A stretch of 51,064 bases of DNA from Massilia sp. (lineage in GTDB: Bacteria; Pseudomonadota; Gammaproteobacteria; Burkholderiales; Burkholderiaceae_D), in the NCBI GenBank assembly GCA_025359245.1, contig JANYGW010000118.1, positions 1 through 51,064 of the forward strand, in the 5' to 3' direction. Positions 1,249 through 12,647 of the stretch are shown here, piece after piece. A model generated the notes under the pieces. It was not told the origin of the DNA, made no database searches, and saw nothing but the letters and a program-made list of their open reading frames with translations. A program made the position numbers and the translations under genes. The first letter of the stretch is position 1; each line of letters begins with the position of its first letter.

Positions 1249-1313
1249 TTTATAGGCTGTTTACGCCGGCCCCCGCACTCTTTATAAAATTTTTAGACCC
1301 TAGCCGGTACGCT
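1249..1313 (+). promoter_or_regulatory. kdp promoter with two tandem KdpE-like boxes
   Basis: Two direct-repeat pairs are visible: TTTATA-N5-TTTACG at 1249-1265 and TTTATA-N5-TTTAGA at 1281-1297. They lie exactly 32 bp apart, and a TACGCT -10-like element follows at 1308-1313, 10 nt after the second pair. The first pair closely resembles the E. coli KdpE site upstream of kdpFABC (TTTATA-N5-TTTACA). The hexamers repeat every 11 bp, as expected for an OmpR-family dimer bound head to tail. A short inverted repeat, CTAGC/GCTAG, at 1300-1315 overlaps the -10. Binding is inferred, not tested. Confidence 0.75.
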
Positions 1314-1348
1314 AGTCAGTATCAAAACAAGAACTGCATGAGGATGAT

Positions 1349-1438
1349 ATGGACGCAATTTACATCGGGGCCATCGTGCTCTTTTTCGCACTGACGTGCG
1401 CTTTCGCGGCAGGCTGCGAGAAGCTGGGAGGCAAGTGA
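1349..1438 (+). CDS. Small single-TM peptide preceding KdpF
   Basis: This 29-residue frame begins MDAIYIGAIV, has one hydrophobic segment at about residues 4-22, and ends with a short charged tail CEKLGGK. It is the first frame after the KdpE-type promoter, and AGGATG lies just upstream of its ATG. Its stop overlaps the start of kdpF (ATGA at 1438), so the two are translationally coupled. It does not look like KdpF, which is the next frame. I recall similar unnamed mini-proteins ahead of kdpF in other proteobacteria. It could be an accessory subunit or a leader peptide. The function is unknown. Confidence 0.6.
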   Translation: MDAIYIGAIVLFFALTCAFAAGCEKLGGK

Positions 1439-1524
1439 TGAACATCTATGACGTTTCCGCGCTGGTCGCGGCGGGCCTGCTGGTCTACCTGGTCCATGCA
1501 CTGCTGAAAGCGGAGCAACTGTGA
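1438..1524 (+). CDS. kdpF: KdpF, small subunit of the potassium-transporting ATPase
   Basis: The 28-residue peptide ([20 protein letters not shown] and an AEQL-type tail) has the single transmembrane helix and size of KdpF. In E. coli this peptide stabilises the KdpABC complex. Both ends overlap neighbours: its ATG shares bases with the stop of the preceding peptide, and its TGA at 1522-1524 overlaps the ATG of kdpA. Position, length and the YLVHALL-like helix support the call. The sequence is too short for a motif-level proof. Confidence 0.8.
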
Positions 1525-3332
1525 TGACTACCCAATCACTTCTCCTGCTGATCGTGTTCCTGGTCGTGCTGATGGCGCTGGCCTATCCGCTCGGTATCGT
1601 TCTGGCGCGCGTCGGCGACGGCGGCACCGTGCCCGGCCTGGGCTGGCTGGTGCGCGTGGAACGCCTGTTCTACCGCGCGGGCGGCGTCGAGGCCGACGCC
1701 AACATGGGCTGGAAGTCGTACGCGATCGCACTGCTCATGTTTAACGGCATCGGCGCGCTGTTTGTGTTCGCCATCCAGCGCCTGCAGGGCTGGCTGCCGC
1801 TCAATCCCCAGGCGATGGCCAATATCAGCGCCGATTCCTCCTTCAATACGGCGGTCAGCTTCGTCAGCAATACCAACTGGCAGGGCTACAGCGGCGAACA
1901 GACCATGAGCTATCTGACCCAGATGGTGGCGCTGACGGGCCAAAACTTCTTCTCGGCCGCCACCGGCATGGCGGTCGCGTTTGCGCTGGTCCGAGGCTTT
2001 AGCGCGCGTTCGTCCAAATCGATCGGCAATTTCTGGGTCGACATCACGCGTTCGACCTTGTACGCGCTGCTGCCCCTGTCGCTGCTGTTCTCGGTATTTC
2101 TGATGGGGCAGGGCGTGGTGCAGAATTTTTCCGCCTACCAGGATGTGCAGCTGGTCGACCCGGTCGCGTACTCGGCCCCGAAACTGGACGCCGACGGGCA
2201 AGCGCTCAAGGATGCCAGGGGCGGGCCGGTGATGGAGAACCTGGTGGCCAAGACGCAGAACATCGCCATGGGGCCAGTCGCGTCGCAGGAAGCGATCAAG
2301 ATGCTCGGCACCAATGGCGGCGGCTTCTTCAATGCCAATTCGGCCCACCCGTACGAGAACCCGACACCGTTGTCGAACTTCATGCAGATGCTGTCGATTT
2401 TCCTGATCCCGGCCGGGCTGTGCTTCGCCTTCGGACGTATGGTCGGCGACAAACGCCAGGGCATTGCGCTGCTGGCCGCCATGAGCATGATCTTTGTCGT
2501 CTCGACGGCAGTAGTCATGGGCAGCGAGCAGGCCGTCCATCCGCAACTGGCGGCGCTCGGCGTCGACCAGGGCGCCAGCGCCATGCAGGCCGGCGGCAAC
2601 ATGGAAGGCAAGGAAACCCGCTTCGGCATTTCCTCCTCCGCGCTGTTTGCCGCGATCACGACTGCCGCTTCGTGCGGCGCCGTCAATGCCATGCACGATT
2701 CGTTTACGCCGGTTGGCGGCATGATGCCGCTGCTGCTGATCCAGCTGGGCGAGGTCGTCTTCGGCGGCGTCGGTTCGGGCCTGTACGGCATGCTGGTGTT
2801 CGCCATCATGGCGGTGTTCATCGCCGGCCTGATGATAGGCCGCACGCCTGAATACCTGGGCAAGAAGATCCAAGCCTACGAGATGAAGATGACGTCGATC
2901 GCGATCCTGGTCACGCCCGTGCTGGTGCTGGGCGGAACGGCGATTGCCGTGATGCTGGACGCGGGCAAGGCCGGCATCGCCAACCCCGGCGCGCACGGCT
3001 TCACCGAGATCCTGTACGCGTTCAGTTCCGCGGCCAACAACAACGGCAGCGCCTTCGCGGGCCTGTCGGCCAACACGCCGTTCTACAACGTGATGCTGGC
3101 GATTGCCATGTGGTTCGGCCGCTTCGCGATGATCGTGCCTATCCTGGCGATTGCTGGCTCGCTGGCCGCCAAGCCGCGCCTGGAAGCGAACTCCGGCACC
3201 ATGCCGACCCACGGCCCAATCTTCATCGGCCTGCTGATCGGGGTGGTGCTGCTGGTCGGCGTGTTGAACTACGTGCCCGCGCTGGCGCTCGGCCCGGTCG
3301 TTGAACACCTTCAGCTCTACACAAGCAAATAA
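1524..3332 (+). CDS. kdpA: Potassium-transporting ATPase subunit KdpA
   Basis: KdpA is the potassium-selective, channel-like membrane subunit of the high-affinity KdpFABC pump. The 602-residue protein has about ten hydrophobic segments and the four filter-type pore loops: [35 protein letters not shown] and [11 protein letters not shown]. Length matches the family (about 560-600). A GTG at 1521 lies directly before the ATG, but the ATG at 1524 overlaps the kdpF stop in the usual coupled form, so I start there. The gene is the third frame of the kdp operon. Confidence 0.97.
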
Positions 3333-3343
3333 TCACGGAGTCC

Positions 3344-5446
3344 ATGATGTCGCACACAATTACGCTGCCAACGGTGGCCACGCCACGCAAGAAGCTGACC
3401 TTATTCGACGCCACGCTGATCTGGCCGGCAATGATCGATTCGATCTTGAAACTCGGTCCGCGCACCCAGGCCCGCAGCCCGGTCATGTTCGTCGTGTATG
3501 TCGGCAGTATCCTGACCACGCTGATGTATTTCCAGGCGCTGGCGGGCAAGGTACAGGCCGATACAGGCTTCATCCTGGCCATCGCGATCTGGCTGTGGTT
3601 CACGGTGCTGTTCGCCAATTTCGCCGAAGCACTGGCCGAAGGGCGCAGCAAGGCACAAGCAGCCTCGCTGCGCGGCCTGAAACAAAGCGTGATGGCCAAG
3701 AAACTGCACACGCCCAGGCACGGCACCACCTGGCTGCCGGTCGCCGGCGCCGAATTGCGCAAGGGGATGGTCATCCTGGTCGAAGCGGGCGATGTGATTG
3801 CCATCGACGGCGAGGTCATCGAGGGCGTCGCATCGGTCGACGAGAGCGCCATCACGGGCGAATCGGCGCCTGTCATCCGCGAGTCGGGCGGCGATTTTTC
3901 GGCCGTCACCGGCGGCACCCGCGTGTTGTCGGACTGGCTGGTGGTGCGCGTGTCGGCCGACCCCGGCGAGACTTTCCTCGACCGTATGATTTCGATGGTC
4001 GAAGGCGCCAAGCGCCAGAAGACCCCGAACGAGATCGCGCTGACGATCCTGCTGGTGGCGCTGACCATCGTGTTCCTGGTCGTGACGGTGACCTTGCTGC
4101 CGTTTTCGCTGTTTAGCGTGGCTGCGGCCAGCGCCGGTTCGCCGGTCAGCATCACGGTGCTGATCGCGCTGCTGGTGTGCCTGATTCCGACCACCATCGG
4201 CGCGCTGCTGTCGTCGATCGGCGTGGCCGGCATGAGCCGCATGATGGGCGCCAACGTCATCGCTACCTCGGGCCGTGCGGTCGAAGCGGCCGGCGACGTC
4301 GACGTGCTGTTGCTCGACAAGACAGGGACGATCACGCTGGGCAACCGCCAGGCATCGGCCTTCTTTGCCGCGCCCGGCGTGACCGAGCAGCAGCTGGCCG
4401 ATGTGGCCCAGCTCGCTTCGCTGGCCGACGAAACGCCGGAAGGGCGCTCGATCGTGATCCTGGCCAAGCAGAAGTTCAACATCCGCGAGCGCGAAATGGC
4501 CGCATTGCACGCCGTGTTCCTGCCGTTTAGCGCCAACACGCGCATGAGCGGCATCGATATCGGCGCACGCCAGATCCGCAAAGGTGCGGCCGATTCGGTC
4601 AGGAAGCATGTCGAAGCAATGGGCCTGCCGTATCCGTCCGAAATGGCACGCCTGGTCGACGACATCTCGCGCCGCGGCAGCACGCCGCTGGTGGTGGTCG
4701 ACGCCGGCCGCGTGATGGGCGTGGTCGAACTGAAGGATATCGTCAAGGGCGGCATCAAGGAGCGCTTCGCCGAACTGCGCCGGATGGGCATCAAGACCGT
4801 CATGATCACTGGCGACAACAAGCTGACCGCCGCTGCGATTGCCGCCGAAGCGGGCGTCGATGATTTCCTGGCTGAGGCCACGCCAGAGGACAAGCTCAAG
4901 CTGATCCGCAGTTACCAGAGCCAGGGCCGCCTGGTGGCGATGACCGGCGACGGCACCAACGACGCGCCGGCGCTGGCCCAGGCCGACGTGGCGGTGGCGA
5001 TGAACTCCGGCACCCAGGCGGCCAAGGAAGCGGGCAACATGGTCGACCTCGATTCGAATCCGACCAAGCTGCTGGAGATCGTCGAGATCGGCAAACAGAT
5101 GCTGATGACGCGCGGCTCGCTGACGACGTTCTCGATCGCCAACGATATCGCGAAATATTTCGCCATCATTCCGGCCGCGTTTGTCGCCACCTATCCGCAG
5201 CTGAAAGCGCTCGACATCATGCACCTGAGCAGCCCGAACTCGGCCATCATGTCCGCCGTCATCTTCAACGCGCTGATCATCATTGCGCTGATCCCGCTCG
5301 CATTGAAGGGCGTGCAATACCGGCCGATCGGCGCCGCGGCTCTGCTGCGCAGAAATATCCTGATCTATGGGGTCGGCGGCATCGTGCTGCCCTTCGTCGG
5401 CATCAAACTGATCGACATGGTGCTGACCGCCATGCATCTCGTCTAA
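3344..5446 (+). CDS. kdpB: Potassium-transporting ATPase ATP-binding subunit KdpB
   Basis: This is the P-type ATPase subunit that hydrolyses ATP to drive uptake through KdpA. The 700-residue protein shows the actuator motif TGES at 171-174, the phosphorylation motif DKTGTIT with Asp325, and the hinge sequence [20 protein letters not shown]. The TGES serine matches the Ser162 site that inhibits the E. coli pump when phosphorylated. CACGGAG at 3334-3340 precedes ATGATG; either Met could start it. It follows kdpA by 11 nt. Confidence 0.97.
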
Positions 5447-5459
5447 AAGGAGGCTTCAC

Positions 5460-6044
5460 ATGAAATCCACACTGCGCCCCGCGCTGGTCCTGTTCGGCAT
5501 ACTGACCCTGGTCGTCGGCGTGCTCTATCCGCTGACCGTGACCGGGATCGGCATGCTGGCCTTCGCCGAGCAGGCCAATGGCAGCCTGATCGAACGTGAC
5601 GGCAAAACGGTCGGTTCCAGCCTGATCGGCCAGGCATTTACTTCGCCCGGCTATTTCTGGGGCCGCCCTTCGGCGACCGGGCCGATGCCCAATAATGGCG
5701 CCGGCAGTTCCGGCTCCAACCAGGGGCCGCTCAATCCGGCGCAGATCGATGCAGTCAAGGGGCGCATCGCCGCCCTGAAGGCAGCCGATCCGTCCAACAC
5801 GGCCTTGATCCCAGTCGACCTGGTGACGGCATCGGCCAGCGGCCTCGATCCCGAGATCAGCGTGGCCGGCGCGCGCTACCAGGCGGCGCGCGTGGCCGCC
5901 GCGCGCAAGCTGCCGCTGGCCCGGGTCGAGGCCCTGGTCAGCGAGCACACGACAGAGCGCGTGTTGGGCTTTTGGGGGGAATCGCGCGTGAATGTGCTTA
6001 AATTGAACCTGGCCATCGATGCCGAACCGGCGTCGAAACGCTAA
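5460..6044 (+). CDS. kdpC: Potassium-transporting ATPase subunit KdpC
   Basis: KdpC is the single-span periplasmic subunit that bridges KdpA and KdpB. The 194-residue protein has one N-terminal membrane helix (about residues 9-30) and the family sequences [24 protein letters not shown] and ARVEALV. AAAGGAGG at 5446-5453 gives a strong ribosome binding site six bases or so from the ATG. It lies 13 nt after kdpB and 21 nt before kdpD, consistent with one transcript. Confidence 0.96.
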
Positions 6045-6065
6045 GCTGCGAGAAAAGGCCTGCCC

Positions 6066-8789
6066 ATGGTTCCCAACCACATACAACGGCCCGACCCCGA
6101 TGCGCTGCTGGCGCAGGTCCAGCTACAGGAGCGCAAGGATGCGCGCGGCAAGTTGCGCATCTACTTCGGGGCGTCGGCCGGCGTGGGCAAGACCTACGCC
6201 ATGCTGGCCGCGGCGCGCAAGCTGCACGCCGAAGGCCGGCCGCTGCTGGTGGGCGTGCTCGAGACCCATGGCCGGGCCGATACGGCCGCCATGCTCGACG
6301 GGCTCGACGTGCTGCCGCAGAGGCAGATTGCCTACCGCGGCAAGACGCTGACCGAATTCGACCTCGACGCGGCGCTGGCCCTGCATCCGGCGCTGATCCT
6401 GGTCGACGAACTGGCCCATTCGAACGCGCCCGGCTCGCGCCATCCGAAGCGCTGGCAGGACGTGGAGGAATTGCTTGACGCCGGCATCGACGTCTTCAGC
6501 ACCGTCAATGTGCAGCACCTGGAGAGCCTGAACGACGTGGTCGGCGGGATCACCGGGGTGCGGGTCGCCGAAACGGTGCCCGACACCGTGTTCGATGCGG
6601 CCGACGAGGTCGTGATGGTCGACATCCCAGCCGACGAATTGCTCACGCGCCTGAAGAGCGGCAAGGTGTACCAGGAACAGCAAGCCGACCGCGCATCCAA
6701 GAATTTTTTCCGCAAGGGGAATCTGATCGCCTTGCGCGAACTCGCCCTGCGCCGCACGGCCGACCGCATCGAAGACGACGTGCGCGCCTACCGGATTGAA
6801 AAGTCGATCGACACGGTGTGGAAAACCGGCGGCGCCTTGCTCGCCTGTGTCGGTCCGCGCCCCGGCAGCGAGCACGTGGTGCGCAGCACGGCGCGCCTGG
6901 CCGGGCAGCTCGGCGCCGACTGGCATGCGGTTTATGTCGAGACGCCGTCGCTGCAGCGCCTGCCTGCCGAGCGGCGCGAGCAGACCCTGGTCACGCTGCG
7001 CCTGGCCGAGGAGCTGGGCGCCAGTACCGAAGTCTTGGCCGGCAACGATATTGCCGAAGCGATCGTCGACTATGCGCGCGACCACAACCTGTCGAAAATC
7101 GTGATGGCGCGCGCCCATACCAACTGGCCGTGGCGCCTGTCGCACATCCGGCGCATTGCCGCCAAGGCGCCGGACATCGATGTGCTTGAAATCGGCGACG
7201 CCGCCCGCGTCAAAACCGGCGCAACGCTGGCGCGCAGCGGCGAGGATGCGCTCGCCCGCGCATTCAGCAGCGGCAACCGCCGGCTGTGGGCCTATGCCAT
7301 CGCGGCGCTCAGCAGCGTCGCCGCGGCGTTGTTGCTAACCCCATTGCTGCCGTTTCTCGCCCTGCCCAACATCGCCATGCTGTTCCTGCTGGTCGTGGTG
7401 GTCGTGGCATTCAAGTTCGGACGCGGGCCATCTGTATTGGCGACTTGCGTCAGCGTGGGCTGTTTCGATTTCTTCTTTGTCGACCCGCGATTTACCTTCG
7501 CGGTGGCCGACCTGCAATACTTGGTCACCTTCCTCGTCATGCTCGCGGTCGGCCTCATTACCGGCCACCTGACGGCCGGCCTGCGTTTCCAGGCGCATGT
7601 CGCGGCCCACCGCGAGCGGCGCTCGCGCGCGCTGTACGAATTCGCGCGCGAACTGTCCGGCGCGCTGCAGACCGAACAGGTCTTCGAGACCACGGGCGAG
7701 TTCATCCAGCGTACCTTCCGCGCCCGCGCCATCCTGCTGCTGCCTGACCTTGACGGTCGCTTGCATCTGCCGGCCGACGCGAGCGCACTGGAGCAGCCGG
7801 ACGTCGGCATCGCCCAATGGGCGTTCGACCACGCCGAAAGCGCGGGCATGGGGACCGACACCTTGCCGGCCAGCCCCTTCTTCTATCTGCCGCTGGTCGC
7901 GCCGATGCGCACCCGGGGCGTGCTGGCGATCGAACCGGAGCACCAGCGCTGGATCCTGATTCCCGAACAGCGCACGCAGCTCGATACCTTCGCCGCGCTG
8001 GCGGCCATCGCGCTCGAACGCGTGCACTATATCGAGGTGGCGCAGAACGCGCTGATCAGCATGGAGTCGGAACGGCTGCGCAATTCGCTGTTGTCGGCGT
8101 TGTCGCACGATTTGCGCACGCCGTTGACCTTGCTGGTGGGCTTGTCCGAATCGCTGGTGCGCGCCAGGCCGCCGCTGCCGCAAGCGCTGCACGATACCGC
8201 GCAGGTGCTGCATAACGAAGCGCTGCGGATGAATGCCCTGGTGGCCAACCTGCTCGACATGGCGCGCATCCAGAGCGGTGAAGTCAAGCTCAATATGCAA
8301 TGGCAGGCGCCCGAGGAAGTCATTGGCAGCGCACTGAATATGAGCGCGTCGCTGCTGCGCGAGCACATCGTCAGCACCAGCATTGCGCCGGACATGCCGC
8401 TGGTGCGCTTCGATGCCGTGCTGATCGAGCGGGTCCTGTGCAACCTGCTCGAGAACGCGGCCAAGTACACGCCGGCCTGGTCCAGGATCGACGTGTCGGC
8501 CAGCCTGCACGGCGCCTGGGCCAGGCTGACGGTGTCCGATGACGGCCCGGGCGTGCCAGCCGGGCTGGAGGAAGCCATTTTCGACAAGTTCACGCGCGGC
8601 GAACGCGAATCGGCCAAGCCGGGCGTCGGCCTGGGACTGGCCATCTGCCGCGCCATCGTCGAGGCCCATGGGGGCAAGATCAGCGCCGGCCGTTCCGACA
8701 TGGGCGGCGCCGCCTTCGTCGTTGCGCTTCCATTGGGCAACCCGCCGGCGGGGCCCGCCATCGAACTGGAAACCCGGAGCGCAGAATGA
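6066..8789 (+). CDS. kdpD: Potassium sensor histidine kinase KdpD
   Basis: KdpD senses potassium limitation and osmotic stress and phosphorylates KdpE. The 907-residue protein has the full domain order: the KdpD domain with Walker A GASAGVGKT (35-43), a universal-stress-like domain (about 250-375), four closely spaced membrane helices (about 405-510, with the GRGPSVLATCVSVGCFDFFF stretch of the DUF4118 sensor), a GAF-like region, the HisKA box ALSHDLRTPL with phospho-acceptor His681, and an HATPase domain with NLLENAAKYTP and GVGLGLAICRAIVEAHGG. It is directly downstream of kdpC, and its stop overlaps the kdpE start by 4 nt, so kinase and regulator are coupled. Confidence 0.97.
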   Translation: MVPNHIQRPDPDALLAQVQLQERKDARGKLRIYFGASAGVGKTYAMLAAARKLHAEGRPLLVGVLETHGRADTAAMLDGLDVLPQRQIAYRGKTLTEFDLDAALALHPALILVDELAHSNAPGSRHPKRWQDVEELLDAGIDVFSTVNVQHLESLNDVVGGITGVRVAETVPDTVFDAADEVVMVDIPADELLTRLKSGKVYQEQQADRASKNFFRKGNLIALRELALRRTADRIEDDVRAYRIEKSIDTVWKTGGALLACVGPRPGSEHVVRSTARLAGQLGADWHAVYVETPSLQRLPAERREQTLVTLRLAEELGASTEVLAGNDIAEAIVDYARDHNLSKIVMARAHTNWPWRLSHIRRIAAKAPDIDVLEIGDAARVKTGATLARSGEDALARAFSSGNRRLWAYAIAALSSVAAALLLTPLLPFLALPNIAMLFLLVVVVVAFKFGRGPSVLATCVSVGCFDFFFVDPRFTFAVADLQYLVTFLVMLAVGLITGHLTAGLRFQAHVAAHRERRSRALYEFARELSGALQTEQVFETTGEFIQRTFRARAILLLPDLDGRLHLPADASALEQPDVGIAQWAFDHAESAGMGTDTLPASPFFYLPLVAPMRTRGVLAIEPEHQRWILIPEQRTQLDTFAALAAIALERVHYIEVAQNALISMESERLRNSLLSALSHDLRTPLTLLVGLSESLVRARPPLPQALHDTAQVLHNEALRMNALVANLLDMARIQSGEVKLNMQWQAPEEVIGSALNMSASLLREHIVSTSIAPDMPLVRFDAVLIERVLCNLLENAAKYTPAWSRIDVSASLHGAWARLTVSDDGPGVPAGLEEAIFDKFTRGERESAKPGVGLGLAICRAIVEAHGGKISAGRSDMGGAAFVVALPLGNPPAGPAIELETRSAE

Positions 8790-9484
8790 ATACGACCCCA
8801 CCGACCGCCTTGCTGGTGGAAGACGAACCGCAGATCCGCCGCTTCGTGCGCAGCTCGCTCGAGGAGGTGGGCTGGCAAGTGCATGAAGCTGAAACCATGC
8901 AGCGCGGACTGATCGAGGCGGGCACGCGCACGCCGGACCTGATCGTGCTCGACCTCGGCCTGCCCGACGGCGACGGCATCACCTTCATCATGGAATTGCG
9001 CAAGTGGTCGACCGTGCCGGTGATCGTGCTGTCGGCGCGGGCGAGCGAGGCCGACAAGGTGAGCGCCCTCGATGCCGGGGCGGATGACTATCTGACCAAG
9101 CCGTTCGGCGTCGACGAATTGCATGCCCGCGTGCGCGCGACCTTGCGCCGCCAGCGCAAGCCGGGCGCCGACAGCGATGGCGTGATCCGGTTCGGCGACG
9201 TCGTGGTCGACATGAAGAACCGGCTGGTGACCAAGGCCGGCGAAAAAGTGCGCCTGACCCCGATCGAGTACAAGCTGCTGTCGGTGATGGTAAGCAACGC
9301 TGGCAGGGTCGTCACCAACCCACAACTGCTGTTGGCGGTATGGGGGCCGTCGCATGCGGAAGATGGGCATTACTTGCGCATTTATATGGGGCATTTGCGG
9401 CACAAGCTTGAGGACAACCCGACCCGGCCGAAATTCTTCCTGACGGAGACGGCGGTAGGGTACCGCTTGATGATGCCGCTATAG
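8786..9484 (+). CDS. kdpE: Response regulator KdpE
   Basis: This OmpR/PhoB-family regulator should activate kdp when phosphorylated by KdpD. The 232-residue protein has a receiver domain (acid pocket VEDE, phospho-acceptor Asp56 in LIVLDLGLPDGDG, conserved Lys in LTKPFG) and a winged-helix DNA-binding domain (from about 125, with RLTPIEYKLL and YLRIYMGHLRHKLE). Its ATG lies in an ATGA overlap with kdpD. KdpE-like boxes occur in front of kdp, the SPFH gene and kup, so its likely targets lie within this locus. Confidence 0.96.
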   Translation: MNTTPPTALLVEDEPQIRRFVRSSLEEVGWQVHEAETMQRGLIEAGTRTPDLIVLDLGLPDGDGITFIMELRKWSTVPVIVLSARASEADKVSALDAGADDYLTKPFGVDELHARVRATLRRQRKPGADSDGVIRFGDVVVDMKNRLVTKAGEKVRLTPIEYKLLSVMVSNAGRVVTNPQLLLAVWGPSHAEDGHYLRIYMGHLRHKLEDNPTRPKFFLTETAVGYRLMMPL

Positions 9485-9511
9485 CGCTGCAAGCCAGTGC
9501 GCGCAGCCGTT

Positions 9512-9576
9512 TTTACGCTTTATTTACGCCCCGCTGGCAGATCCTTACCGCATTTTTACAGGCATTCCCGTATGCT
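9512..9576 (+). promoter_or_regulatory. Promoter of the SPFH gene with two KdpE-like boxes
   Basis: The first pair is TTTACG-N5-TTTACG (9512-9528). The second is CTTACC-N5-TTTACA (9544-9560), with a weaker first hexamer. A TATGCT -10-like element follows at 9571-9576. Distances are identical to the kdp promoter: 32 bp from pair to pair and 10 nt from the second pair to the -10. The site lies 28 bp after the kdpE stop and 74 nt before the SPFH start codon. It is a strong inferred target of KdpE. Confidence 0.65.
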
Positions 9577-9649
9577 GTTTCCATGCCTGTCGTGCTGCTA
9601 GCGCGCACGGCATCTCCCGGCCCGGCAGCCGCCTTAAAGTGGAAGAGCC

Positions 9650-10555
9650 ATGAATCGCGTCTTGAGAAAATTCATTCTGGGTGCCGCGGCACTCATCGTA
9701 GTCTTGCTGGTGTCGTCGACATTCCTGCTCAATTGGCGGATTATTCCGCCAGGCTATACCGGCGTCAAAGTCAATCGCCTGGTCGATCGCGGCATCACGC
9801 ACGAGAACATTGCCACCGGCTTCGTGTTTTACAACCCGATCCAGACCCAGGTCATTGTCTATCCGACCTTCGTCCAGCGCGTGGTCTGGACGCGCGATCT
9901 GCACGAGGGCAATTCGGTCAACGAGGAATTGACGTTCAATACGCGCGATTCGGTCCCGGTGACGCTGGATGTCGCGGTCAGCTATGCCTTGGCGGCCGAG
10001 CGCGTTCCCGATTTCTACACGAAATTTCGCGCCGACCGCATCGAGTCGTTCACGCATGGCTTCTTGCGCGACACGGCGCGCAACGTCATCGTCGCGGTAG
10101 GGTCGGAATATACCTTCGATGATGTGAACGGTCCGAAGAAAGAAGAGTTCCTCACCAATATCGCGAAAAAGCTCGACGAAAAGGTGGCTGTGTACGGTAT
10201 CGGCATTCAGCAATTCGGTTTGATCGGCTCGCTGCGCCCGCCCCAGGCCCTGCTCGAAGCGGTGGGCGCCAAGTCCAAGGCTATCCAGGATTCCATCCGG
10301 ACCGAAAATGAGGTCAGGTCGGCCCAGGCGGAAGCGAAAAAGCGGGTTGCCATTGCCGAGGGCGAAGCGGCGGCGAACCGGGCACTGCTCGCATCGATCG
10401 AACCGAAGCTATTGGAATGGGAACGCTTGAAATTGCAGAAGGATGCGATCAACAAGTGGAACGGCGTGATGCCCAGTGTGATGACTGACGGCGGCGGCTC
10501 CATGTTGTTCAACATTCCAGTCAATGGTGCCGGTGCGCCGGCCGCAAAGCGCTAG
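9650..10555 (+). CDS. SPFH/prohibitin-family membrane protein
   Basis: The 301-residue protein has one N-terminal membrane helix (about 9-28), an SPFH/band-7 domain (about 33-210, including RIIPPGYTGVKVN and IGIQQFGLIGSLRPPQ), and a charged alanine/glutamate-rich coiled coil (about 215-260, AQAEAKKRVAIAEGEAAANR). Such proteins oligomerise into membrane rings or cages and often act as scaffolds or protease regulators. No NfeD or FtsH partner is adjacent. The ATG follows GGAAGAG at 9642. The gene lies between kdpE and kup, and its promoter copies the kdp promoter layout, so a potassium-related role is plausible but unproven. Confidence 0.85.
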   Translation: MNRVLRKFILGAAALIVVLLVSSTFLLNWRIIPPGYTGVKVNRLVDRGITHENIATGFVFYNPIQTQVIVYPTFVQRVVWTRDLHEGNSVNEELTFNTRDSVPVTLDVAVSYALAAERVPDFYTKFRADRIESFTHGFLRDTARNVIVAVGSEYTFDDVNGPKKEEFLTNIAKKLDEKVAVYGIGIQQFGLIGSLRPPQALLEAVGAKSKAIQDSIRTENEVRSAQAEAKKRVAIAEGEAAANRALLASIEPKLLEWERLKLQKDAINKWNGVMPSVMTDGGGSMLFNIPVNGAGAPAAKR

Positions 10556-10611
10556 CGCCTTGCCCTGGCCGCGCAACTGGGCCGTCCACGCATGGCGAGG
10601 GCGGCGGTCGG

Positions 10612-10652
10612 CCTTTGGGCGCAGGTAGGCGGGCTCGTAGACTGCCCAAAGG
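10612..10652. repeat. 9-bp perfect inverted repeat between SPFH gene and kup
   Basis: CCTTTGGGC (10612-10620) and GCCCAAAGG (10644-10652) form a perfect stem around a 23-nt loop. It lies 56 nt after the SPFH stop and 30 nt before the kup KdpE-like box. There is no T-tract after it, so it is not a textbook intrinsic terminator. It may separate the two transcription units or be a protein-binding site. Confidence 0.4.
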
Positions 10653-10682
10653 GTAAGCACTTGCGCCTGTGCCAGCCCAATT

Positions 10683-10715
10683 TTTACAAAATTTTTACGC
10701 ACGACTCTGTAAACT
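10683..10715 (+). promoter_or_regulatory. kup promoter with one KdpE-like box
   Basis: One hexamer pair, TTTACA-N5-TTTACG, lies at 10683-10699, followed after exactly 10 nt by TAAACT (10710-10715) as the -10. This matches the promoter-proximal half of the kdp and SPFH promoters in sequence and spacing. The distal pair found in those two promoters is missing here. The start codon is 51 nt downstream of the -10. Confidence 0.65.
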
Positions 10716-10766: not shown

Positions 10767-12647
10767 TTGACAACCGAACAAAACAAGAAAAGCAAGCTGA
10801 TTGCACTGACACTGGCGGCCGTCGGCATCGTCTACGGCGATATCGGCACCAGTCCGCTGTACACGCTCAAGACCATTTTCGATCCGACCCATGGCCTGCC
10901 GCTGAACGGGCCCAATCTGCTGGGCGTCGTGTCGCTGATTTTTTGGGGCCTGACCATCATCGTCTCGCTCAAGTACGTCACGCTGGTGCTGCGCGCGGAC
11001 AACCGGGGCGAAGGCGGCATCATCGCGCTAATGGCGCTGGCGCTCGGTTCGGTCAGCAAGGGCTCGCGCCTGTACCTTGTCCTGCTGCTGACGGGCGTGT
11101 TCGGCGCCGCCCTGTTTTATGGCGATAGCGTGATCACGCCCGCGATTTCGGTGCTGTCCGCGATCGAGGGCCTGGAAGTGGCGACGCCGGCCATGAAGCC
11201 GTACGTGGTGCCCTTGACCATCATCGTGCTCGTCGCGCTGTATTCGGTGCAGTCGCATGGTACCGCTGGCATCGGGCGCTGGTTCGGTCCCATCATGACG
11301 CTGTGGTTCCTGGTGCTGGCCGTGATGGGCTTGGTCAACATCGTGCATAACCCCGAAGTTCTCGCCGCCATCAATCCGATACACGCTTATGCGTTCATGA
11401 TCAATAACCGTATCATTGCCTTTATCGCGCTCGGGGCGATCGTGCTGGCGTTTACCGGCGCCGAGGCCCTGTATGCCGACATGGGCCACTTCGGCAAGAA
11501 ACCGATACGCATGGCCTGGTTTTTCATCGCGTTTCCGGCGCTGGCGCTCAATTACCTGGGACAGGGCGGCTTGCTGCTGGCGCACCCGGAAGCGATTTCG
11601 AATCCCTTCTACCAGCAACTGGGCGCCTGGAGCGTCTATCCGCTGGTGGCGCTGTCGACGATCGCGACCGTGATCGCATCGCAGGCGACGATTTCCGGCA
11701 CCTTCTCGATGACCAAGCAAGCCATGGCGCTTGGCTTCCTGCCGCGCATGCGCGTACTGCACACGTCGGAGAGCGAGATCGGCCAGATTTACCTGCCGGC
11801 CGTGAACTGGCTGCAGCTGATCGTCGTGCTGATCGCCGTGGTCGGCTTTGGATCGTCCGACAACCTGGCCGCCGCGTACGGCATCGCCGTCACGGCCACG
11901 ATGCTGGCGACGACCATATTGACGTTCTTCGTCATTCGCTACCGCTGGAAATTGAACCCGCTGCTGTGCTGGGTCTCGACCGGCTTCTTCCTGATCATCG
12001 ATGTCACCTTTTTCTCGGCCAACGCGCTCAAGCTGTTCCACGGCGGCTGGTTCCCGCTGATGCTAGGCGCTGTGCTGTTTACCATCATGCTGACCTGGAA
12101 GCGCGGCCGCCAACTGGTATTCCAGAATTTGCAAAAGCATGCGGTGCCGCTGGATGATTTTTTGGAATCGCTGTTCCTGGCGCCGCCTGTGCGCGTGCCC
12201 GGCACCGCCATCTTCCTGCGCGGCGCCAGCGATGGCGTGCCGCACGCCATGCTGCACAATCTGTCGCACAACAAGGTATTGCATGAGCGCGTGATGTTCC
12301 TCACCGTGAGCATTGCCGACGAACCGTGGGTCGCGCCGGACCGGCAAGTCAGCATCGTGCCGCTTGGCCATGAGTGCTATCAGTTGAATGTCCACTACGG
12401 CTTCAAGGATGAACCGGATATCCCCAATATCCTCCACCTGTGCACGGAGCTGGGGTTGCCGTTCGAGATGATGGAAACCTCGTTCTTCCTGGCGCGCCAG
12501 ACCGTGGTGACGGCGACGGGACACGGCATGATGCCATGGCGCGAACACCTGTTCGCGACGATGTCGCGCAACGCGCGCGATGCCGCCGACTATTTCCGCA
12601 TTCCGACCAACCGCGTGATCGAGCTCGGGACCCAGGTCGAAATCTAG
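10767..12647 (+). CDS. kup: Kup-family low-affinity potassium transporter
   Basis: Kup (TrkD) takes up potassium by proton symport. The 626-residue protein has the signature GIVYGDIGTSPLYTLK near its N-terminus, about twelve membrane helices to residue 440, and a C-terminal cytoplasmic domain (about 450-626) typical of the family. No ATG or GTG is available in frame before the conserved start, so I use TTG at 10767 (MTTEQNKKSK). Its ribosome site is weak (GGGA at 10753-10756). The gene has a KdpE-like box upstream. Its stop overlaps the stop of the convergent DUF418 gene by 4 nt. Confidence 0.94.
   Translation: MTTEQNKKSKLIALTLAAVGIVYGDIGTSPLYTLKTIFDPTHGLPLNGPNLLGVVSLIFWGLTIIVSLKYVTLVLRADNRGEGGIIALMALALGSVSKGSRLYLVLLLTGVFGAALFYGDSVITPAISVLSAIEGLEVATPAMKPYVVPLTIIVLVALYSVQSHGTAGIGRWFGPIMTLWFLVLAVMGLVNIVHNPEVLAAINPIHAYAFMINNRIIAFIALGAIVLAFTGAEALYADMGHFGKKPIRMAWFFIAFPALALNYLGQGGLLLAHPEAISNPFYQQLGAWSVYPLVALSTIATVIASQATISGTFSMTKQAMALGFLPRMRVLHTSESEIGQIYLPAVNWLQLIVVLIAVVGFGSSDNLAAAYGIAVTATMLATTILTFFVIRYRWKLNPLLCWVSTGFFLIIDVTFFSANALKLFHGGWFPLMLGAVLFTIMLTWKRGRQLVFQNLQKHAVPLDDFLESLFLAPPVRVPGTAIFLRGASDGVPHAMLHNLSHNKVLHERVMFLTVSIADEPWVAPDRQVSIVPLGHECYQLNVHYGFKDEPDIPNILHLCTELGLPFEMMETSFFLARQTVVTATGHGMMPWREHLFATMSRNARDAADYFRIPTNRVIELGTQVEI

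Follow-up and report, generated by a model that had tools for sequence, protein, structure and literature searches.

Three promoters in the window analysed here, a stretch of 51,064 nucleotides from Massilia sp., carry direct repeats in a fixed layout that recurs across the same genome and its family, and sequence comparison indicates that they probably belong to a regulon for potassium limitation under the control of a KdpE-family response regulator. A KdpE-family regulon is supported by the analysis; restriction of this regulon to one locus, and control by KdpE alone, are not. The window (C124:1-51064) is part of a draft genome of 4.96 Mb in 244 contigs that is 82% complete, and contains, in order, a TorF porin gene, kdpFABC, kdpD, kdpE, a gene encoding an SPFH protein (SPFH1) and kup. 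Its relevant features are as follows.

1249..1265, + strand: putative upstream KdpE box of kdp, TTTATA at 1249 and TTTACG at 1260, 12/12 positions
1281..1297, + strand: putative second KdpE box of kdp, TTTATA at 1281 and TTTAGA at 1292, 11/12 positions, 32 bp past the first
1308..1313, + strand: -10-like element of kdp, TACGCT, after N10
1438..1524, + strand: kdpF-like 28-aa reading frame, named by position and by eye
1521..3332, + strand: kdpA
3344..5446, + strand: kdpB, by position and likeness in relatives
5460..6044, + strand: kdpC, by position and likeness in relatives
6066..8789, + strand: kdpD, sensor kinase (NF007793, 1128 bits, cut-off 1123)
8786..9484, + strand: kdpE, response regulator (NF007820, 342 bits, cut-off 325)
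9512..9528, + strand: putative upstream KdpE box of SPFH1, TTTACG at 9512 and TTTACG at 9523, 12/12 positions
9544..9560, + strand: putative second box of SPFH1, CTTACC at 9544 and TTTACA at 9555, 10/12 positions, 32 bp past the first
9571..9576, + strand: -10-like element of SPFH1, TATGCT, after N10
9650..10555, + strand: SPFH1, Band_7 protein (Pfam, E 2.4e-24)
10683..10699, + strand: putative single KdpE box of kup, TTTACA at 10683 and TTTACG at 10694, 12/12 positions
10710..10715, + strand: -10-like element of kup, TAAACT, after N10
10767..12647, + strand: kup, low-affinity K+ transporter (TIGR00794, Pfam K_trans)

An earlier note on this DNA had described hexamer pairs with 5-nt gaps at 1281/1292, 9544/9555 and 10683/10694, each followed after exactly 10 nt by TACGCT, TATGCT or TAAACT, together with a second pair 32 bp upstream at kdp and SPFH1 (1249/1260 and 9512/9523), and every one of these bases, positions and distances was confirmed. 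The hexamers are of the TTTATA/TTTACA type with a gap of 5, and match the half-sites of the Escherichia coli KdpE operator, TTTATA-N5-TTTACA (PMC3264566), as the note had stated. The hexamer at 9544, CTTACC, is imperfect, giving the one poor pair among the window sites, and kup has no partner box at -32, where 3/12 positions match.

Two further elements were observed in this region. Before the TorF porin gene, positions 94-166 hold a decayed box (TTTACG at 145-150, N10 and TAAGCT at 161-166, and an out-of-register TTTACA at 94-99) that resembles the porin-type double box of locus L151. Between the kdp promoter and kdpF lies a 29-aa hydrophobic reading frame (1349-1438); by eye, a similar peptide follows the box in L278, and in Mycetohabitans a short gene is annotated at the same place.

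The paired layout, defined as two TTTAYR-N5-TTTAYR boxes 32 bp apart followed by N10 and TA, was found at five places in the genome when up to three mismatches were allowed, and at none in the reversed control. These double boxes precede kdpFABC, three different SPFH genes or operons (Band_7 matches of 2.4e-24, 1.6e-37 and 7e-6) and one OmpA/ABC operon, and three of them lie on other contigs, so that the regulon is not local, as it had been called. The double box on contig C130 precedes a slipin-type SPFH gene and faces away from a second KdpD-KdpE pair, whilst that on C45 precedes a 78-aa gene and an SPFH lipoprotein gene. The operon on C236 (L107:2545-7742) comprises a coiled-coil gene, a familyless gene whose product is a 336-aa membrane-coiled-coil protein, and genes for an OmpA-domain protein, an ABC permease and an ATPase. 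On C230 (L108:4986-5901), a single box with one mismatch, followed by N10-TAAGCT, was observed before a second TorF-like porin gene, behind which lie PII-like (glnK) and AmtB-like (amtB) genes, identified by eye.

The earlier proposal that KdpE activates all three units of the window stands as far as the type of regulator is concerned. Control by a KdpE-type protein is well supported as a prediction, since kdpE is encoded between the promoters, the hexamers are the E. coli half-sites, the DNA-binding residues are conserved and double boxes track KdpE across the family. The residues R193, R200 and T215, which E. coli KdpE needs to bind DNA according to PMC3264566, are present in both KdpE and a paralogue, KdpE2, encoded by the second pair, and both proteins pass the NCBIfam KdpE equivalog cut-off of 325 bits (342.2 and 336.2, respectively). 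PhoB was rejected as the regulator (170 bits against a PhoB cut-off of 296), and the hexamers also differ from the Pho type. KdpE2 shares 71% identity with KdpE, has almost the same recognition helix and may act on the same targets. Because of this paralogue, a model with one regulator is incomplete.

A stronger form of this argument, in which KdpE2 and its partner KdpD2, which is without the N-terminal KdpD sensor domain, act at some or most boxes while KdpE reads only kdp, would draw on this similarity and on the arrangement in both carriers of the second pair in the genus (G000 and G015), where slipin or KimA-like genes lie behind a double box divergent from kdpD2E2 and an SPFH lipoprotein box is also present. 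We nevertheless consider it unlikely, as the nine other KdpE-positive genomes of the genus each have a single KdpE match and still carry double boxes before kdp, and in most of them also before the porin gene or the RimK cluster.

The earlier note held that identical spacing at three sites is hard to explain by chance, and this is true of strict and paired sites, which exceed the controls, but not of loose single boxes, which are at genome background. Within the window, 12 single-box matches with up to two mismatches were found against 2.66 expected, the maximum in 100 shuffles being 7; over the whole genome, the same pattern was not enriched (20 matches against 22 in the reversed control). 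Sequence of 200 Mb generated from a third-order Markov model contained no perfect single box followed by N10 and TAnnnT and no double box with up to four mismatches. However, the Markov estimate for a near-identical single-box pattern, 2.9, is well below the real reversed control of 22, and the model is therefore too optimistic. Evidence was accordingly drawn only from perfect single matches and from the paired layout, and weak single sites (up to two mismatches), which do not exceed the control in this genome, were rejected.

This background bears on the reading that only the kdp boxes work and that the SPFH1 and kup sites are coincidences of AT-rich promoters. Neither the SPFH1 nor the kup link is conserved outside the lineage, which is in keeping with coincidence, as is the background level of loose boxes; even so, SPFH1 has the paired layout, as one of five in the genome against none in the control, the kup box is the only perfect single-box match in a scan of the genome, and the SPFH1 relative of G006 and the kup gene of G033 keep perfect boxes with N10-TAnnnT. 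Coincidence thus seems to us improbable.

The SPFH1 and kup sites are lineage-restricted additions. A perfect box is present in two of 42 kup upstream regions (40 fetched, the window and the second kup of G009), those of the window and of G033, and a general link between KdpE and kup was rejected. Three further cases were seen at the level of the order, namely G039, where kup is preceded by a double box though a KdpE was not found, and G048 and G050, in which a box precedes a kdpD'-kdpE-kup row. In Sinorhizobium fredii, KdpE is reported to bind kdpFABC and not kup (PMC9239096). Common ancestry of the kup promoters of the window and G033 was also rejected, as only 23 bp around the box align. 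SPFH1 is present in seven of the 392 genomes of the family. Its five relatives outside the genus are all without a double box at up to five mismatches, one of them (G331) having a single match with three mismatches, and a conserved SPFH1 promoter was accordingly rejected outside the genus. It was kept inside the genus, where a perfect single box, TTTACACGTTTTTTACA-N10-TATTCT, precedes the SPFH1 relative of G006. This box is the sole match with up to two mismatches in 18 kb and is not near kdp genes; no KdpE was found in this genome, which is 48% complete.

Co-occurrence of boxes and regulator was examined on two scales. Among 60 genomes, including that of the window, 26 contain a double box with up to three mismatches, against three control matches; KdpE testing covered 48 of the 60. 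Within the genus (17 genomes), all 11 KdpE-positive genomes carry a double box, and among the six without KdpE, G009 has three double boxes and G012 one match with three mismatches, which is absent at two or fewer and was dropped as spurious. Across 392 family genomes, with up to two mismatches, 242 have a double box (four control hits), and 305 are KdpE-positive at E 1e-50 with seven candidates scored per genome. Both were found in 237 genomes, KdpE only in 68, the box only in five and neither in 82. Double boxes are thus present in 237/305 positive and 5/87 negative genomes (Fisher p 5e-36, kinship ignored), the pattern over genomes that dependence on KdpE would produce, kinship again being ignored. 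Against this stand the 68/305 KdpE-positive genomes in which no double box was found with two mismatches allowed, and the five KdpE-negative genomes that have one.

Some genomes carry boxes although a KdpE was not found in them (G009, G103, G113, G168, G335 and G039), as would be expected if the boxes were read by a different OmpR/PhoB-family protein whose T-rich repeat is similar, but such a regulator is highly improbable given the strong co-occurrence with KdpE, the identity of the hexamers with E. coli KdpE half-sites, the presence of kdpA behind the box of G113, and the case of G009, where no kdpBCDE was found beside a cut kdpA though double boxes remain, which may be relics. The kdp remnant of G009 (L143:9027-10731) matches kdpA over 478 residues and then continues, by eye, as LysR-like sequence.

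The preferred assignment to a KdpE-family regulator is also consistent with the layout of kdp promoters in other bacteria. We scanned 44 such promoters, taking the best box before kdpA as anchor and then seeking the best partner offset; the scan took 8 of 19 further kdpA-bearing loci, and 12 plasmid rows were taken among the 50 listed (459 records). One promoter per beta- or gammaproteobacterial set was kept, leaving 21 after same-genus repeats and 12 others were dropped; of these loci, 11 had been fetched for their boxes and ten picked by KdpE or KdpA likeness. A partner at +32 is best or tied in 20 of the 21, E. coli included, and in nine of the ten chosen regardless of boxes, the mean score at this offset being 9.86/12 compared with 7.57 for the next. 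TAnnnT is present at +59 in 19/21 (background 0.9%). Klebsiella is the exception, with an upstream box that has a 4-bp gap, followed by the second box, N10 and TATCCT. The paired layout is absent from the eight alphaproteobacterial kdp promoters scanned, where +32 is never best, and +32 is likewise not best in Deinococcus or Rhodococcus; in Oscillochloris and a Planctomycetia bin it is best, but without TAnnnT at +59.

The E. coli kdpFABC operator shares with the Massilia promoters the TTTATA-N5-TTTACA repeats, an orthologous KdpE, the place of the partner at 32 bp, N10 and a -10-like element (TACCCT). Past its upstream box, in the -35 region, lies a degenerate second box, TTTGCG-AAATC-TTTGCA, whereas in the Massilia lineage the second box is often near-perfect. 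The reported E. coli footprint, on the direct repeats at -72 to -50, corresponds to the upstream box alone, and the operator description of PMC3264566, as far as it was available, makes no mention of the second.

Boxes in relatives precede a range of genes. Among 40 loci (L138-L177), many of them fetched for their boxes, 22 contain kdpA, 21 of these with a double box upstream, and eight kdpA loci have a further double box within ~210 bp of a TorF porin gene. In G015, the box divergent from kdpD2E2 is followed by the gene for a KimA-like K+ importer (6s3k, E 3.8e-56) and by that for a slipin, while a further box lies before the SPFH lipoprotein gene. GNAT/C39, RimK and CorA genes also stand behind boxes (Pfam on L161; likeness by eye in L146 and L164), as do genes for a DHDPS-family enzyme (L267), a Na/Ca exchanger two genes beyond the box (L268), a universal stress protein, a BBP2 porin and a ParA-like protein; the last was assigned by eye, and the example that was scanned gave no Pfam match. 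In G016 (L161:8203-8356) and also in L162 and L163, the space separating the GNAT/RimK/CorA cluster from a short gene contains a bidirectional version of the arrangement, with two divergently oriented double boxes placed back to back, ~30 bp apart.

We propose that when K+ is short, KdpD would phosphorylate KdpE, which would then bind direct TTTAYR repeats spaced 5 bp. In the full module, present at kdp and SPFH1, two boxes 32 bp apart, or about three helical turns, would bring the bound KdpE to roughly the same side of the DNA. The upstream box, at approximately -71 to -55, where E. coli KdpE footprints, may recruit or stabilise KdpE, whereas the second, at approximately -39 to -23, would replace the -35 element and end 10 bp before the putative -10, so that KdpE bound there could contact RNA polymerase. 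In class II PhoB promoters, the direct repeats of the Pho box likewise take the place of the -35 element, with about 10 bp between their end and the -10; the placement is alike, but the hexamers and the regulator differ. The kup promoter has only the -35-replacing type of box and may respond more weakly, and SPFH1 may help to organise the membrane during K+ stress.

E. coli KdpE has been described as a single-target regulator (PMC8249747), although one study adds adeP, uxaA and uxaC (PMC7657598), whereas the boxes described here precede five or more operons. KdpE is reported to act beyond kdp in Staphylococcus aureus and enterohaemorrhagic E. coli (PMC3610689), a likeness to the present case; the additional targets in those organisms are virulence genes, while the candidates here, which have a single fixed promoter layout in common, comprise K+ transporters, SPFH genes, porins and others. 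A search of the open-access literature found one paper for KdpE together with SPFH and nothing pairing KdpDE with stomatin, and only within the portions of that literature covered do we claim that the second box and these extra targets are unpublished.

The earlier reading therefore captured a true signal and the right regulator family, but only one corner of a wider, conserved KdpE regulon. We consider quite possible, without yet calling it probable, a joint reading in which an old paired module of beta- and gammaproteobacteria, its -35-replacing box overlooked even in E. coli, has spread in this family to three unrelated kinds of K+ importer (KdpFABC, Kup and KimA-like) and, in one genome, to SPFH genes three times. 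K+ starvation would thereby be tied to the organisation of the membrane, and the targets would be divided between two KdpE paralogues. The fixed promoter signature makes the question of whether KdpE has a single target countable, names candidate targets (kup, the KimA-like importer, the SPFH genes and the porin) and leads to the prediction that the kdp promoter studied most closely, that of E. coli, contains a second KdpE site. The presence of this doubled switch in many relatives and in E. coli suggests that a regulator supposed to have one target controls more genes.
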